Source: Candidatus Sulfotelmatobacter sp. (GTDB taxonomy: Bacteria; Vulcanimicrobiota; Vulcanimicrobiia; Vulcanimicrobiales; Vulcanimicrobiaceae). From it: 64,000 bases of DNA. Below are positions 26,864 to 62,266 of the stretch, piece after piece. The stretch spans positions 1 through 64,000 of the forward strand of contig DATJRY010000006.1 of the NCBI GenBank assembly GCA_035504415.1, given 5' to 3'. Made by a program: the position numbers and the translations under genes. How positions within the stretch are numbered: the stretch's first letter is position 1; each line of letters opens with the position of its first letter. Under the pieces are notes generated by a model. The model was not told the origin of the DNA. It worked only from the letters and a program-made list of their open reading frames with translations, and did not search any database.

Positions 26864-28471
26864 TCACTCGCCGCGCGCGAAGCCGGCGATCAGGGCCGGC
26901 GCCGCGGCGTCGAATCCGACGACGTCGAGCATCCCGGCGTCGTCGGGGTCGGCGATGGTGAACCCGGTCGCGGTCATTCCGACGACCGCGAGCTTGGCGC
27001 GGATCCCCGTCCGTTCCCGGTAGCGCCGCAGCGCCTCGTCGGGGTGGACGTTCCCGAACCAGGTCTCGTTGTCGGTGTAGATGACGAACAGGTCGATCTC
27101 CAAGCGCTTTTCGAGCGCGTAGAGCATCGGCAGCGCGCAGTCCGTCGCCATGAACGGGAGCGCGTTCGTGCGCGCCACGACCGACCGGATCGGCTCGTCA
27201 CGACGGATCGGAAACGGGACGAACTTCTCCGAGAAGGCCATGACGTGCACGCGCGCTTCCGTGCGCACGTGCGTCACCGCCATCGCCGCCGCGGCGACCC
27301 GCGGGGTGATCCCCGGAATACCGGCGATCTCACCGCTCCCCATCGATCCCGACACGTCGAGCGCGACCAGCATGCGGGCACCGCTCGGCTCGACGTGCGC
27401 GAAGGACAGCGCGAACGCCGTCTCCAGCGCGTCGACGATCGACTTGACCGGAGTCCAGGTCGTCGACCCGCGCACGCTCTTCCCCGACCGATAGGTCTCG
27501 AGCGCCGCCAGGATCGCGATCGGGTGAACGCGCGTCGTGCGCAGCGCGCTCGCTTCGGTCAGCCGCTGCGCCACCTGCGCCGTCTCCGGCGCCTTCGGCG
27601 TCAACAGCCCGACGCGGGTGAGGGTCGCGAGGTTGCGCAGCAGCGCCGTCATCGGCAACGTCGGCAGCAACGCGTCCCAGACGAGGGGCTCGCGGAGCCA
27701 CTCGCTCGGCAACGCCTCGCGCGGCAGCCCGCTTCCCCGCACCAGCTCCGCGCACGCCAGCGCGTCGGCGTCCGCGAACGCCTTGGCCTGCGCGTGCGCC
27801 CGCAAGAGCGCCAGCTCGCGAAACTCCTCGCTCGGCACCGTCCCCGCCACGATCCACGCGTAGAGCGCCGCCCGTTCCGCATCACCCGCCAACGGGTGCG
27901 CCAGCCGGAAGACGTCACGGTGCGTGAACCCGTGCCGGTTCTGGTACTTGAGCGCCTGATACGCCAGCTGCCCGACCGGCTTGTTCGCGTACCAGTCGTG
28001 GAGCGCGCGGCGCAGCCCGCGTCCCCACCCGCGGAACTGTTCGACGTACGAGCAGAACTGCAACAGGTGCGAACCCGTGCGGCAGACCCGTCGCAACCCC
28101 TCCCCGAGCGCGTAGCGTCGCGTCGCCTCGTCACCCAGACCCGCGCACGCCGCGAGCGCGAAGATCGCCGCGTCCACCTTCGGTGCCCGCCCGCTCTCCG
28201 AGATCGTGACGACGCGCGCGACGACGCGCTGGCCGTCCTCGCCGATCGCCGCGATCAGGTTGGCCGCGTTCTCCTTGGTGAGCGCCCACTCGCTCGCGTA
28301 GTACGTCCCGCCTTCCGATCCGAGGATCAGAAAGCGGTCCAAACGCGACCAGCGATCGAGCGCGTAGACGTATCCGCCGGCGCTGTTGGCGACCTGCGAA
28401 CGGTTGGGCTGGGCCTGCGACTGCGGCGTTCCGAAGACGCGCGCGCGGAAAACCCGCGCCAGGGACTGCAT
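26864..28471 (-). CDS. rsr: Ro60 orthologue Rsr (TROVE and vWA domains)
   Basis: 535 residues starting at ATG 28471 behind GGAGG. The first about 340 residues are the HEAT-like TROVE ring: ANSAGGYVYALDRWSRLDRF, YYASEWALTKENAANLI, HDWYANKPVGQLAYQALKYQ and the phrase FTHRDVFRLAHP are characteristic. From about residue 365 follows a von Willebrand A domain with the MIDAS sequence ALDVSGSMGSG. Ro/Rsr proteins are ring-shaped and bind misfolded RNAs and Y RNAs; in Deinococcus Rsr works with PNPase in RNA decay. Here the gene follows rtcB and two tRNA-like RNAs on the same strand. Slightly long for the family but complete. Confidence 0.95.
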   Translation of the reverse strand: MQSLARVFRARVFGTPQSQAQPNRSQVANSAGGYVYALDRWSRLDRFLILGSEGGTYYASEWALTKENAANLIAAIGEDGQRVVARVVTISESGRAPKVDAAIFALAACAGLGDEATRRYALGEGLRRVCRTGSHLLQFCSYVEQFRGWGRGLRRALHDWYANKPVGQLAYQALKYQNRHGFTHRDVFRLAHPLAGDAERAALYAWIVAGTVPSEEFRELALLRAHAQAKAFADADALACAELVRGSGLPREALPSEWLREPLVWDALLPTLPMTALLRNLATLTRVGLLTPKAPETAQVAQRLTEASALRTTRVHPIAILAALETYRSGKSVRGSTTWTPVKSIVDALETAFALSFAHVEPSGARMLVALDVSGSMGSGEIAGIPGITPRVAAAAMAVTHVRTEARVHVMAFSEKFVPFPIRRDEPIRSVVARTNALPFMATDCALPMLYALEKRLEIDLFVIYTDNETWFGNVHPDEALRRYRERTGIRAKLAVVGMTATGFTIADPDDAGMLDVVGFDAAAPALIAGFARGE

Positions 28472-28552
28472 GGACGTATCCTCCGAAAAGTGCGTGATGA
28501 AGAAGAGCCGGTATCAGCGGTCGGGAACGATGCAGGTCGATGGACGAGTGTT

Positions 28553-28661
28553 GTTCCGAGATCGGGCGTGCGCCCGCGATGCTCTACCGCTGAGCTACCG
28601 GCGTATGCACGCCGGGCGGGATTCGGACCCGCGACCTTCGATTGAGAGATAACCTCGAAAC
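28553..28661 (-). ncRNA. Y RNA (YrlA-like) with a circularly permuted tRNA mimic
   Basis: Read on the minus strand, GUUUCGAG (28661-28654) pairs with CUCGGAAC (28560-28553), closing a 109-nt RNA. Inside are, in order, a T-arm (GCGGG/CCCGC, loop UCCGAAU, 28632-28616), a 7-bp acceptor-like stem CCGGCGU/ACGCCGG closed by GCAU (28615-28598), UA as bases 8-9, and a D-arm GCUC-AGCGGUA-GAGC (28595-28581), then a CGGGC-GCAC-GCCCG hairpin. This is a tRNA whose ends are joined at the acceptor and reopened in the anticodon region, as known for YrlA RNAs that bind Rsr. Location between rtcB and rsr supports it. Transcript ends are inferred. Confidence 0.85.
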
Positions 28662-28662
28662 T

Positions 28663-28677
28663 CCGGCCCATCGCCGG
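28663..28677 (-). other. Short hairpin between the two tRNA-like RNAs
   Basis: CCGGC and GCCGG separated by 5 bases form a small hairpin directly 5' of the permuted tRNA mimic. It may mark the end of the upstream RNA or a processing site. No U-run follows it. Functional status unknown. Confidence 0.35.
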
Positions 28678-28720
28678 CACCGTCACGAATCGGCCTCGCA
28701 GGCAAGGTGGGCGCGCGGCC

Positions 28721-28788
28721 CCCACTGGCGGCGCACCCGAAGATGCGCCGTCCTGGATTCGAACCAGAAGACACCAAGGTCCAGTGGG
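28721..28788 (-). ncRNA. Second tRNA-like RNA: T-arm plus UUCG-closed acceptor-like stem
   Basis: On the minus strand CCCACUGG (28788-28781) pairs perfectly with CCAGUGGG (28728-28721). Enclosed are a T-arm CUGG-UUCGAAU-CCAG (28767-28753), with the canonical T-loop, followed three bases later by a 9-bp stem CGGCGCAUC/GGUGCGCCG (one G-U pair) capped by a UUCG tetraloop (28750-28729). The T-arm then closed-acceptor order is the same permuted order as in the neighbour, but I see no D-arm. It may be a second Y RNA (compare two Yrl RNAs in Salmonella) or a T-arm-only decoy. No ORF covers it. Ends are inferred from the outer stem. Confidence 0.7.
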
Positions 28789-28824
28789 ATCCCAAAATAA
28801 CCGCACGCTGTCGGCCCGCGAGGT

Positions 28825-28848
28825 GCCGTGGGCCCGCAGGCCCACGGC
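28825..28848 (-). terminator. Perfect 10-bp hairpin just after rtcB
   Basis: GCCGTGGGCC and GGCCCACGGC flank a TGCG loop, 7 bases past the rtcB stop. No U-run follows, so it may be a processing or stabilising hairpin rather than an intrinsic terminator; read-through into the tRNA-like RNAs and rsr would be needed if all share the rtcB promoter. Confidence 0.5.
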
Positions 28849-28854
28849 GGAGCG

Positions 28855-30045
28855 TCAACCTTTGACGCAGACCACCTGACGGAGCGTGTGCACGATCTCG
28901 ACGAGGTCGCGCTGCGCCGCCATCACGGCGTCGATGTCTTTGTACGCGGACGGCGCCTCGTCGAGGACGCCCGCGTCTTTGCGGCACTCGATCCCGTCGG
29001 TCTCGCGTCGTAGATCGCCGAGCGTGAGGCGACGGCGCGCCTCGCTGCGGCTGAGACGGCGGCCCGCGCCGTGCGAGCACGACTCGAACGAGGCCGGGTT
29101 ACCGCGCCCACGAACCACGAACGAGCGCGCACCCATCGAGCCCGGGATGAAGCCGAGCTCGCCGAGCCCGGCGCGAACCGCACCCTTGCGCGTCACGAAC
29201 ACGTCGGCACCGAAGTGCCGTTCGCGGGCGACGTAGTTGTGGTGACAGTTCACGACGGTTGCGCCGCGCTCGAACGCCGGCAGACCGACGTTGCGATGCG
29301 AGAGCGCCGCGATCGCACGCGAGAGCATGAGCTCGCGGTTGAGCCGCGCGTACTCCTGCGCCCACCCGACCGCCTCGACGTAACCGTCGAAGCTCGCCGT
29401 GTGCTCGCTCAGGTACGCGAGATCGCGATCGGCCAGCGTCACGCCCAGACCGTCCAGCTCACGCTGGGCCGTCTCGATGTAGACCATACCGATGCGGTTG
29501 CCCGCGCCGCGCGAACCCGAGTGCAGCGTCAACCACACATGACCGTGCTCATCGATGCACAATTCTACATAGTGGTTTCCCGAGCCGAGTGTACCGAGCT
29601 GCTGACGAGCCGTGCGTACCGAGACCCGCGGCGCACGCGCCATGACACGCGCGTAGCCCTCCGCGAGCTGCGTCTCCCAAACCTGGTCGATTTCGGCCGG
29701 CACCTCGCGGTGCGCACCCTGACCGACCGGGATCTGGCGCTCGAGCGCGTTACGCACGCGGCGCAGATCGTCGGGGAGGTCCTGTGCGCGGAGCGTGAGC
29801 TGCTGTGCGATCATGCCGCAGCCGATGTCGACGCCGACCGCGGCCGGCACGATCGCACCGAGCGTGGGCACGACGCTGCCGACCGTGGCGCCGCGTCCGA
29901 AATGGACGTCGGGCATCACGGCGACGTGATCGTGCACGAACGGCAGCGCCGCGACGTTCGCGACCTGTTCGCGCGCTTGGCGCTCGAATTCGACGCCGTC
30001 GACCCACGCGTAGACCGGACGACCGGCGGTCTCGATGACCTGCAT
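28855..30045 (-). CDS. rtcB: RNA-splicing ligase RtcB
   Basis: RtcB joins RNA 2',3'-cyclic-phosphate or 3'-phosphate ends to 5'-OH ends using GTP and manganese. Start chosen at 30045 (MQVIETAGRPV) because AAAGGAGG lies just upstream; 396 residues. Metal and guanylate-site motifs seen: MPDVHFGRGATVG, VGVDIGCGM, GTLGSGNHYVEL, LHSGSRGAGNRIG, NCHHNYV and the C-terminal SHGAGRRLSRSEARR (guanylated His region). No rtcA or rtcR is next to it. In Salmonella rtcB sits with rsr and Y RNAs, and the same set is here in the order rtcB, RNA, RNA, rsr, which supports a joint RNA repair/quality-control role. Confidence 0.96.
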   Translation of the reverse strand: MQVIETAGRPVYAWVDGVEFERQAREQVANVAALPFVHDHVAVMPDVHFGRGATVGSVVPTLGAIVPAAVGVDIGCGMIAQQLTLRAQDLPDDLRRVRNALERQIPVGQGAHREVPAEIDQVWETQLAEGYARVMARAPRVSVRTARQQLGTLGSGNHYVELCIDEHGHVWLTLHSGSRGAGNRIGMVYIETAQRELDGLGVTLADRDLAYLSEHTASFDGYVEAVGWAQEYARLNRELMLSRAIAALSHRNVGLPAFERGATVVNCHHNYVARERHFGADVFVTRKGAVRAGLGELGFIPGSMGARSFVVRGRGNPASFESCSHGAGRRLSRSEARRRLTLGDLRRETDGIECRKDAGVLDEAPSAYKDIDAVMAAQRDLVEIVHTLRQVVCVKG

Positions 30046-30087: not shown

Positions 30088-30116
30088 AGCGTAGGCGAGC
30101 ACCGCATCGTTGTCAA
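30088..30116 (-). promoter_or_regulatory. Sigma70-type promoter for rtcB
   Basis: On the minus strand TTGACA (30116-30111), a 17-base spacer and TACGCT (30093-30088) form a near-consensus promoter about 40 bases upstream of the rtcB start. A perfect -35 is unusual in this high-GC sequence, so expression may be strong or constitutive. No sigma54 element is seen, unlike rtcBA of E. coli. Confidence 0.65.
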
Positions 30117-30158: not shown

Positions 30159-30188
30159 TTGACAGCCGAGGCGAGCAGCATTTAGGAT
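30159..30188 (+). promoter_or_regulatory. Sigma70-type promoter facing the tRNA-Pro/HNH side
   Basis: TTGACA (30159-30164), an 18-base spacer and TAGGAT (30183-30188) on the plus strand, divergent from the rtcB promoter. The predicted start near 30195 is 3 bases before an ATG, so the first reading frame would be leaderless. Confidence 0.6.
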
Positions 30189-30197
30189 CAACGCACT

Positions 30198-30323
30198 ATG
30201 TGGCAACCGACGGCATCGATTCGGCCGACGAACCCAGACTGCGGCGTGCAGCCTGTGTTGAAGCACGCCCTGCTCACCGGCCGGAATCAGAACGACGTCG
30301 CGTCGCCGGAGATCCTATCGTAG
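30198..30323 (+). CDS. Possible leaderless 41-residue small ORF
   Basis: ATG at 30198 follows the promoter by only about ten bases and opens a 41-codon frame ending TAG at 30321-30323 (start MWQPTASIRPTNPDCG). It has five prolines, three of them CCG codons, and lies upstream of a strong hairpin and a tRNA-Pro(CGG). It might be a leader peptide, or the region may simply be a non-coding RNA. No homology known to me. Confidence 0.3.
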   Translation: MWQPTASIRPTNPDCGVQPVLKHALLTGRNQNDVASPEILS

Positions 30324-30354: not shown

Positions 30355-30386
30355 AAGAGGGGATCGGCAGCCGCCGGTCCCCTCTT
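30355..30386 (+). terminator. Strong 14-bp hairpin upstream of tRNA-Pro
   Basis: AAGAGGGGATCGGC pairs with GCCGGTCCCCTCTT (one G-T pair) around an AGCC loop. It closes with TT but lacks a long U-run. It could end the short transcript starting near 30195 or act as an attenuator or RNase processing site before the tRNA. A weaker overlapping stem (CTTTTCGT with ACGAAAGAG, 30339-30359) offers an alternative fold. Confidence 0.5.
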
Positions 30387-30443: not shown

Positions 30444-30521
30444 CTGCGCGTGGGGAAGCTTGGTCATCCCGCGTCCCTCGGGCGGACGAGATCGTCGGTT
30501 CGAATCCGACCGCGCAGGCCA
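30444..30521 (+). tRNA. tRNA-Pro (anticodon CGG), CCA encoded
   Basis: A complete cloverleaf: acceptor CTGCGCG/CGCGCAG (7 bp), T8 G9, D-arm GGGA-AGCTTGGTCA-TCCC, anticodon stem CGTCC/GGACG with loop CTCGGGC giving anticodon CGG and G37, variable loop AGATC, T-arm GTCGG-TTCGAAT-CCGAC, then GCCA. G15 can pair with C48. The discriminator base is G73, whereas bacterial tRNA-Pro usually has A73. It reads CCG codons, which are frequent here. Confidence 0.88.
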
Positions 30522-30565: not shown

Positions 30566-31105
30566 ATGAGCGACGTGCTCTTGCTGAACTTCACCTACGA
30601 GCCGCTGGCCGTCATCGGCGTCCGGCGCGCGGTCCGACTGGTATTCACACGGAAGGCCGAGGTCGTCTTCGCCGGAGAGGACGAGCTGCGATCGCCGACC
30701 GTCGCGTTTCCGTTGCCGTCGATCGTGCGACTGCTCTTCTCGGTGGCGCGGCGCCGTCGGCGGCTCGCGCTCACGAAAATGAACGTGCTGCTGCGCGACG
30801 ACTACCGGTGCGGGTACTGTGGCGTGCGCTGCGGTGCCGGGTCGGCCAGCGTCGACCACGTCGTGCCGAAGAGCCGTGGCGGACGCTCGGCGTGGGACAA
30901 CCTGGTGACGTGCTGCCTGGCCTGCAACGGTCGCAAGGGCGATCGCACGCCGGACGAGGCACGCATGCCGCTGCGACGGATCCCGCGCGAGCCCCGTTCG
31001 ATCCCGTGGATCGTCGTGCGTCGTCACACGCTCCCGGACGAGTGGTGGAAGTACCTGTTCCTCTACTCGGTCGACGTAGTGGAACGGCCGGTGCGCCATG
31101 GGTGA
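30566..31105 (+). CDS. HNH endonuclease family protein
   Basis: 179 residues; ATG at 30566 (MSDVLLLNFTYEPL) is chosen because AAAGGAGG lies upstream. The N-terminal VLLLNFTYEPLAVIGVRRAV is the usual opening of a common small HNH family. The nuclease core has CGYCG (about residue 78), SVDHVVPKSRGG with the HNH histidine, W/N positions in SAWDNLVTCC and CLACNGRKGDRTP, forming a zinc-binding CxxC...CxxC pair. Cellular role of the family is not settled. Directly downstream of tRNA-Pro and overlapped by the XRE gene; a link to RNA repair next door is only positional. Confidence 0.88.
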   Translation: MSDVLLLNFTYEPLAVIGVRRAVRLVFTRKAEVVFAGEDELRSPTVAFPLPSIVRLLFSVARRRRRLALTKMNVLLRDDYRCGYCGVRCGAGSASVDHVVPKSRGGRSAWDNLVTCCLACNGRKGDRTPDEARMPLRRIPREPRSIPWIVVRRHTLPDEWWKYLFLYSVDVVERPVRHG

Positions 31106-50260: not shown

Positions 50261-50402
50261 AGCTCGCGACGGGAACCCGGTGCAATTCCGGGACGGTCGC
50301 GCCACTGTCAGCGGGGAGCTGCCGATCCGCCACTGGTCCGCGTGACCGGGAAGGCGCCGGCGTCGAAGCGCCGATCCGCAAGTCAGGACACCGGGGCGAG
50401 CT
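50261..50402 (+). promoter_or_regulatory. Cobalamin riboswitch (B12 element) upstream of btuF
   Basis: The closing stem is AGCTCGC (50261-50267) with GCGAGCT (50396-50402). Conserved parts of the cobalamin aptamer are all there: GGGAACCCGGTG-CAATTCCGGG, the B12 box CGCCACTGT and near the end AAGTCAGGACACC. It precedes the btuFCD-cob operon by 46 bases; ligand binding would reduce expression. The short expression platform holds the ribosome site AGGGTAGG, so translational control is likely. Confidence 0.93.
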
Positions 50403-62129: not shown

Positions 62130-62266
62130 GCGCGTCGGTATCCTGACTTCGCGGCTCGTCACCCATCGTGCACGCGCCTTCCAGCCTCTCGGCCGTGGCG
62201 CGTGCGGGCTCCCCGCTGACAGTGGCGCGACCGTGCCGGATTCTCACCGGCTTCCCGCGCACGCGA
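62130..62266 (-). promoter_or_regulatory. Cobalamin riboswitch upstream of btuB
   Basis: On the minus strand the sequence holds GGGAAGCCGGTGAGAATCCGG, the B12 box CGCCACTGT, CAGCGGGGAG and AAGTCAGGATACC in the right order and spacing for a cobalamin aptamer. It ends about 38 bases before the btuB start, allowing translational control. Its 5' end lies about 60 bases from the divergent cobU start. Confidence 0.94.

Follow-up and report, generated by a model that had tools for sequence, protein, structure and literature searches.

A Ro60-Y RNA-RtcB locus of Candidatus Sulfotelmatobacter sp. as a putative contracted island for RNA repair and tRNA replacement

The stretch of DNA analysed here, hereafter the window, comprises 64,000 nucleotides (nt) of contig DATJRY010000006.1 (Candidatus Sulfotelmatobacter sp., assembly GCA_035504415.1) and carries on its minus strand, in a row, rtcB (28855-30045), two small RNAs termed Y1 and Y2, and rsr, which encodes the Ro60 ortholog Rsr (26864-28471). 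A single divergent intergenic region parts this unit from a tRNA-Pro gene and an HNH endonuclease gene. With a probability of roughly 55%, the locus corresponds to a contracted island for RNA repair or tRNA-damage response and for tRNA replacement, whose counterparts in relatives hold tRNA arrays under attenuation by a leader peptide with almost all of the amino acids. Parts of this model are well supported, whereas its regulation and function are what we infer from sequence comparison.

RtcB joins RNA ends bearing a 2',3'-cyclic phosphate and a 5'-OH, and Ro60-Y ribonucleoproteins bind damaged or misfolded RNA. A response to tRNA damage would be the most economical reading of the combination of (i) RtcB; (ii) tRNA mimics; and (iii) replacement tRNAs, since the rsr-yrlBA-rtcBA RNA repair operon of Salmonella is induced by damaged tRNAs (PMC7790460) and, in Anabaena, translation stress lifts the joint repression of a 26-tRNA operon and rtcB (PMC10272220). 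The following features can be distinguished at the locus:

26864-28471, minus strand: rsr, Ro60 ortholog of 535 amino acids with a HEAT/TROVE ring and a vWA domain (PF05731, E 1.5e-39; PF25045, E 1.7e-63)
28536-28675, minus strand: Y2, YrlA type, Ro60 stem plus a permuted tRNA-like module (RF02553 match; covariation)
28694-28823, minus strand: Y1, same Ro60 stem, its module reduced to the T-arm at 28752-28768 plus an acceptor-like UUCG hairpin, with no D-arm (stem in register with 28 covarying Y RNAs)
28826-28847, minus strand: strong GC hairpin without a T-run directly 3' of the rtcB stop, which may serve RNA processing or stability (seen in the sequence and its fold)
28855-30045, minus strand: rtcB, 396 amino acids (PF01139, E 5e-120; phmmer matches to 2epg/1uc2)
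30088-30116, minus strand: sigma70-like promoter of the rtcB-Y1-Y2-rsr unit (TTGACA-17-TACGCT; in relatives TTGACAAAGGTCG..GTAAGCT)
30159-30188, plus strand: divergent sigma70-like promoter of the tRNA side (TTGACA-18-TAGGAT, 10/12; counterpart in six same-genus relatives)
30198-30323, plus strand: predicted leader open reading frame (ORF), 41 amino acids long with 18 of the 20 kinds (no F, Y), in the same position as the 41-46 amino acid ORFs of relatives (17-20 kinds)
30355-30386, plus strand: attenuator-like hairpin, 31 nt past the ORF stop, with a poor T-tail (same hairpin in relatives, in several of them followed by a T-run)
30444-30521, plus strand: tRNA-Pro(CGG), likely the last remnant of a tRNA array (ARAGORN; RF00005, 54.5 bits)
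30569-31105, plus strand: array-type HNH endonuclease, second paralog (PF14279/PF01844; 66-75% identity to the array-end HNH of seven same-genus genomes)

The Ro60-RtcB unit and its Y RNAs

The window Rsr matches Deinococcus Rsr (2nvo) over its full length (phmmer, E 1e-125, span 13-535), and its complete TROVE ring and vWA domain place it in the Ro60/Rsr family; the NCBIfam Rsr equivalog model matches it below the cut-off (543 of 900 bits). RtcB shows the full-length fold, with DIGCG cysteine and HGAGR histidine motifs that align to solved RtcB. The rtcB-rsr gap of 383 nt holds no convincing gene and its fold beats 100 of 100 shuffles (z -3.95). A first-pass annotation, made from the letters alone, had described rtcB, two RNAs and rsr in a row on one strand with non-coding gaps, and this description is borne out by the domain matches and the fold.

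The same annotation likened the gene set to that of Salmonella, in an RNA-repair framing and with rtcA and rtcR absent. Homology, covariation and conserved synteny support this framing and the likeness for gene content: as in the Salmonella operon (PMC7790460), one unit combines Ro60 and RtcB with two Y RNAs, among them a YrlA. It fails for order and regulation, as the window differs from that operon (PMC7790460) in (i) its order, rtcB-Y-Y-rsr; (ii) RtcA and RtcR, which were not found; (iii) a sigma70-like instead of a sigma54 promoter; and (iv) the leader ORFs, terminators and adjacent tRNA array of its relatives. Genome-wide searches detected no RtcA, RtcR or archease (genome 95.7% complete), and the window thus lies outside the Salmonella type of operon, with its RtcA and RtcR/sigma54 control. 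The sigma70-type promoter proposed for the unit has a counterpart kept in relatives, but its -10 element is weak and a consensus scan does not list it.

Judged from structure and comparison, both window RNAs are Y RNAs that share one Ro60-type stem and differ in the module they carry; the earlier description of two structurally different tRNA-like RNAs holds for the modules but not for the stem. This stem forms 10 of 10 lower and 7 of 7 upper pairs in Y1, and 9 of 10 and 7 of 7 in Y2. Among same-genus relatives, which are catalogued as Candidatus Eremiobacterota or WPS-2, the tandem RNAs 5' of rsr have in common a GGGCC-N10-GTTAT 5' side with a matching 3' side, and across 28 such Y RNAs the variable pairs show covariation well above that of dealt-out controls. 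Complementarity served in part to locate the 3' strand, so that the pair count leans towards pairing; this bias is answered by the controls of the Y-RNA scan, which found mostly three to four RNAs per same-genus locus in sense, none antisense, none downstream and about none in shuffles. Relatives with complete upstream sequence have three to four Y RNAs per locus, compared with two in the window.

The Y2 module comprises a T-arm (28616-28633), an acceptor-like hairpin and a D-arm (28581-28598). The Rfam model YrlA (RF02553) aligns to it in full length, and its parts, a T-arm, a closed acceptor-like stem and a D-arm, follow one another on the Ro60 stem in the permuted order of YrlA (28553-28658, 48.1 bits, E 8e-10 for 501 nt searched). 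The gathering score of 69 is reached by no genome of this phylum, and the membership of Y2 rests on structure and context; in an alignment of eight YrlA-type RNAs, 18 of the 37 consensus pairs show compensatory change. The Y-RNA/YrlA identity first suggested for these RNAs is therefore upheld by a match below the gathering score and by pairs that covary in relatives. Apart from its score of 48 bits against 69, the locus departs from the Rfam family in its second Y RNA, which has no D-arm, and in the three to four tandem Y RNAs of relatives, with their differing modules. Y1 has no Rfam match and, because it has no D-arm, is filed as a Y RNA and not as YrlA. As for Deinococcus radiodurans, the Ro60 ortholog is nearly full length and the Y stem motif (GGGCCG..GGUUAU) is similar; unlike there, the Rfam Deinococcus_Y_RNA model gives only 21 bits (E 0.27). 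Tethering of PNPase is known from Deinococcus.

In the phylum-wide Rfam YrlA scan, only matches above about 36 bits, together with their context, were relied on. Matches at 27-34 bits were discounted, since control genomes, E. coli among them, yield such matches too, and many of them span only the stretch from T-arm to D-arm, as expected from neighbouring tRNAs. Two further matches in G137 (46.4 and 37.6 bits) were dropped, with no Ro60, ARAGORN tRNA or Ro60-stem motif nearby. Two variants of the Y RNAs were also seen: (i) a miniature of about 26 nt, GCGGGCCGTATGACACCTCGTCCGCG, between Y3 and rsr in L012, which looks like a Y RNA cut to its lower stem; and (ii) apparent small Y hairpins nested in YrlA-like RNAs between T-arm and D-arm (L071:3569-3780 and L081:2996-3545).

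tRNA arrays and HNH genes in relatives

In six same-genus genomes, a tRNA array of 13-28 genes adjoins the locus and a second HNH gene lies at the far end of the array. ARAGORN places 19-28 tRNA genes beside rsr or rtcB in same-genus loci, and 13 and 23 in two more, numbers that are approximate because it also calls some Y RNAs as tRNAs (e.g., L016 Y3). One such call, a tRNA-Thr within a YrlA-type Y RNA (L016:1525-1600), is a possible source of wrong tRNA annotation. The array diverges from rtcB or the Y RNAs in L011, L012, L013, L015, L103 and L104, and lies 5' of rsr on the same strand in L017. The array-end paralog, 66-75% identical to the window HNH, is found in G100, G098, G092, G093, G095, G094 and G097; a housekeeping-like HNH occurs in one copy in most genomes of the phylum.

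The window has one tRNA at the locus, and its genome, with 47 tRNAs, lacks a large array, so the term tRNA array unit applies to the relatives and not to the window. Within its own genome, the tRNA-Pro(CGG) matches no other DNA; its long same-genus matches are array tRNAs of G092 and G094. The flanking genes agree between window and relatives, the locus lying between enoyl-CoA hydratase/SDR genes and a liv block, which favours, at the level of gene order, contraction of a larger island over independent assembly.

A second group of islands consists of Chloroflexota-type loci (L059, L060, L063, L067, L082 and L085), where 11-20 arrayed tRNAs stand 5' of rsr; five of the six have HNH and two have RtcB. 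At least eight tRNAs are present in 10 of 23 long Ro60 loci, and Ro60 is repeatedly found near an array, HNH and sometimes RtcB, with differing orders and across at least two phyla. It is already known that mycobacterial tRNA arrays, on phages and plasmids, contain HNH genes (PMC5966550) and that 20 of 29 archaeal tRNA clusters contain TROVE genes (PMC6333295). The islands of relatives resemble both in their dense arrays with HNH or TROVE genes, and differ by also having Y RNAs and RtcB, as well as a leader ORF and hairpin that are conserved; the window, for its part, keeps one tRNA. The Anabaena trn operon with TrcR likewise couples a large tRNA operon to rtcB through translation stress but, unlike the window, it is under a repressor and unlinked to rtcB, with no mention of Ro60, TROVE or Y RNA (PMC10272220). 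The open literature searched yielded no paper joining tRNA arrays, Y RNAs and RtcB, nor one with a leader peptide before a tRNA array.

Some arrays contain ORFs (L011:1167-1769, L012:1268-1831, L015:11266-11994), that of L012 reading by eye as a LAGLIDADG homing endonuclease. In G100, rtcB is gone and a LAGLIDADG-type ORF (by eye) stands in its place (L011:4783-5721), with the last rtcB codons and the flanks matching G098. Elsewhere in the window, two cobalamin riboswitch matches exceed the gathering score (50270-50393, plus strand; 62136-62257, minus strand).

Leader ORFs before the arrays

In leader-peptide attenuators of the trp/his type, a promoter, a short ORF and a terminator precede the structural genes. 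The arrays of relatives have a similar arrangement, with a terminator-like hairpin in the last place; unlike in trp/his, the ORF uses nearly all amino acids instead of repeats of one, the genes under putative control are tRNA genes, and the antiterminator is not established. Between rtcB and array, two TTGACA promoters diverge. The array-side leader ORF of the same genus has 41-46 codons and starts no more than a few bases from where transcription is expected to begin; 28-31 nt past its stop (38 in G099) comes a strong hairpin. Chloroflexota-type loci have gaps of 27-32 nt, and the leader ORFs of these two groups range from 41 to 52 codons. In the Armatimonadota locus L062, the ORF has 66 codons and 20 amino acids, but the gap is 50 nt; G031, examined after the pattern was noticed, has 19 of 20 amino acids and a 28-nt gap. 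A rule-based pass over all arrays of at least eight tRNAs with enough upstream sequence recovered all leaders but that of L062, with longer ORF starts for G099, G095 and L063.

In the window, a simple terminator scan does not list the hairpin and its T-tail is poor, so the attenuator may be degenerate or decaying. The rtcB side has no leader ORF, unlike in relatives, and control in the window is thus probably relaxed. The first-pass annotation had left out this leader ORF and hairpin before tRNA-Pro, as well as tRNA-Pro and HNH as members of the locus and the Ro60-binding stem on both RNAs.

The number of distinct amino acids in the leader peptides is 20 in G092, G093, G094 and G095; 19 in G098, G080, L059, L060, L063 and L065; 18 in G100, the window and L082; and 17 in G099. 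For 43 residues drawn from local proteins, the probability of 20 out of 20 is 0.0015, and that of at least 19 about 0.02. Random ATG ORFs of 40-46 codons from the same loci served as the null; a control set of ORFs before terminators was dropped in their favour, being too small (n=17) and including the window leader and L065. At least 18 amino acids occur in 4.8% of random ORFs in Eremiobacterota and in 20% in Chloroflexota and others, compared with four of five and three of three leader lineages, respectively (two of the latter leaders, with 52 codons, are favoured by length). Off-frame translations of the same leader DNA give 13-17 amino acids, and the peptide sequences diverge strongly while their composition stays broad. 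This amino-acid signal is suggestive, not proven, as far as such comparisons go.

Several points weigh against an attenuated island: (i) the diversity statistic is moderate, with a Fisher combined P of 0.0008-0.002 when each sequence lineage is counted once; (ii) at least 19 of 20 amino acids are not rare in Chloroflexota ORFs (7.6%); (iii) the rtcB-side leaders of relatives (33 amino acids long, 15-17 kinds) show no excess diversity; (iv) the G099 leader has 17 of 20 amino acids and a 38-nt gap; (v) the viral-contig arrays tested have no comparable leader (the one case recovered there, with 15 amino acids and a gap of 57, is unlike the others), so that the link does not hold everywhere; (vi) pairing of an antiterminator with the post-stop region, tested against shuffles, is not established, being weak in Eremiobacterota and, as a rule, not seen in Chloroflexota; and (vii) the island model is drawn from sequence comparison.

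A tentative proposal, with somewhat less than an even chance, is that one leader peptide, in which almost all amino acids are encoded, serves as a universal sensor of aminoacyl-tRNAs: the loss of any tRNA would stall the ribosome and, through attenuation, switch on a replacement array beside the Ro60-Y RNA-RtcB unit. It is unlikely that the array-side ORF is instead a general sensor of ribosome speed, responding for instance to translation-inhibiting antibiotics, with its amino-acid set incidental. Such a role would suit the induction of the Anabaena tRNA operon by translation inhibitors (PMC10272220), the poor conservation of the leader peptide sequence and a diversity only moderately beyond chance in Chloroflexota; it fits less well with the breadth reached in four of five independent Eremiobacterota lineages, compared with 4.8% of random ORFs there, and with the narrower off-frame translations.

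Proposed mechanism and its alternatives

In the contracted-island model, the trigger would be tRNA cleavage or translation stalling. RtcB would reseal RNA halves with 2',3'-cyclic-phosphate and 5'-OH ends, the set of Ro60 and Y RNAs would hold or route damaged structured RNA, and the YrlA module, as a tRNA mimic, might tether or decoy a tRNA-binding factor, while the array would replace lost tRNAs. In relatives, the predicted array transcript begins with the near-all-amino-acid ORF of 41-52 codons, followed by the hairpin about 28 nt past the stop; if the lack of a charged tRNA stalled a ribosome anywhere in this ORF, termination would be prevented and the array turned on. The division of labour suggested earlier, in which Rsr holds the RNA, the Y RNA gates and RtcB reseals, extrapolates from Deinococcus and Salmonella and goes beyond what sequence can show.

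The locus might also be an ordinary Deinococcus-like Ro60-Y RNA quality-control particle, tethering PNPase, with RtcB, tRNAs and HNH as mere neighbours. Apart from the full-length match to Deinococcus Rsr, this is favoured by G100, G093, G099 and G033, where rsr and Y RNAs persist with no adjacent rtcB; these cases qualify the same gene order looked for in relatives, where synteny is otherwise conserved, and argue from gene content that Y RNAs belong first to Ro60 and to RtcB only by association. Chance neighbourhood, however, does not explain why array, HNH and some RtcB recur near Ro60 across phyla in varied orders. In addition, G080 (L110) retains a full array, array-type HNH and, beside that HNH, rtcB, but has no Ro60 there; the quality-control explanation is improbable. 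A full array with array-type HNH and no adjacent rsr is also seen in L144 (G031).

Equally improbable is that the island came from a phage or plasmid as a mobile cassette against anticodon nucleases or defence, spread by HNH, for although Ro60 is common in phages such as mycobacteriophages (342 phage records), HNH-bearing mycobacterial arrays reside on phages and plasmids (PMC5966550) and homing-endonuclease-like ORFs (by eye) lie within arrays, the genus shares its synteny with the window and the viral-contig arrays tested are devoid of the leader architecture. No arrays were found at the Ro60 loci on plasmids of Bosea, Rhizobium and Picosynechococcus. On the Bosea plasmid pANAM02 (L141), aminoacyl-tRNA hydrolase and seryl-tRNA ligase genes are annotated near the TROVE gene.

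For bacterial Ro60 and Y RNAs outside Deinococcus, the company of RtcB, tRNA arrays and HNH across at least two phyla suggests tRNA damage as the common problem. The Y RNAs arranged in tandem, alike in their Ro60 stem but differing in their modules, look like interchangeable adaptors. If the leader peptide acts in the way suggested here, it would be a simple sensor for the loss of any tRNA, and the trigger of such islands would be directly testable.

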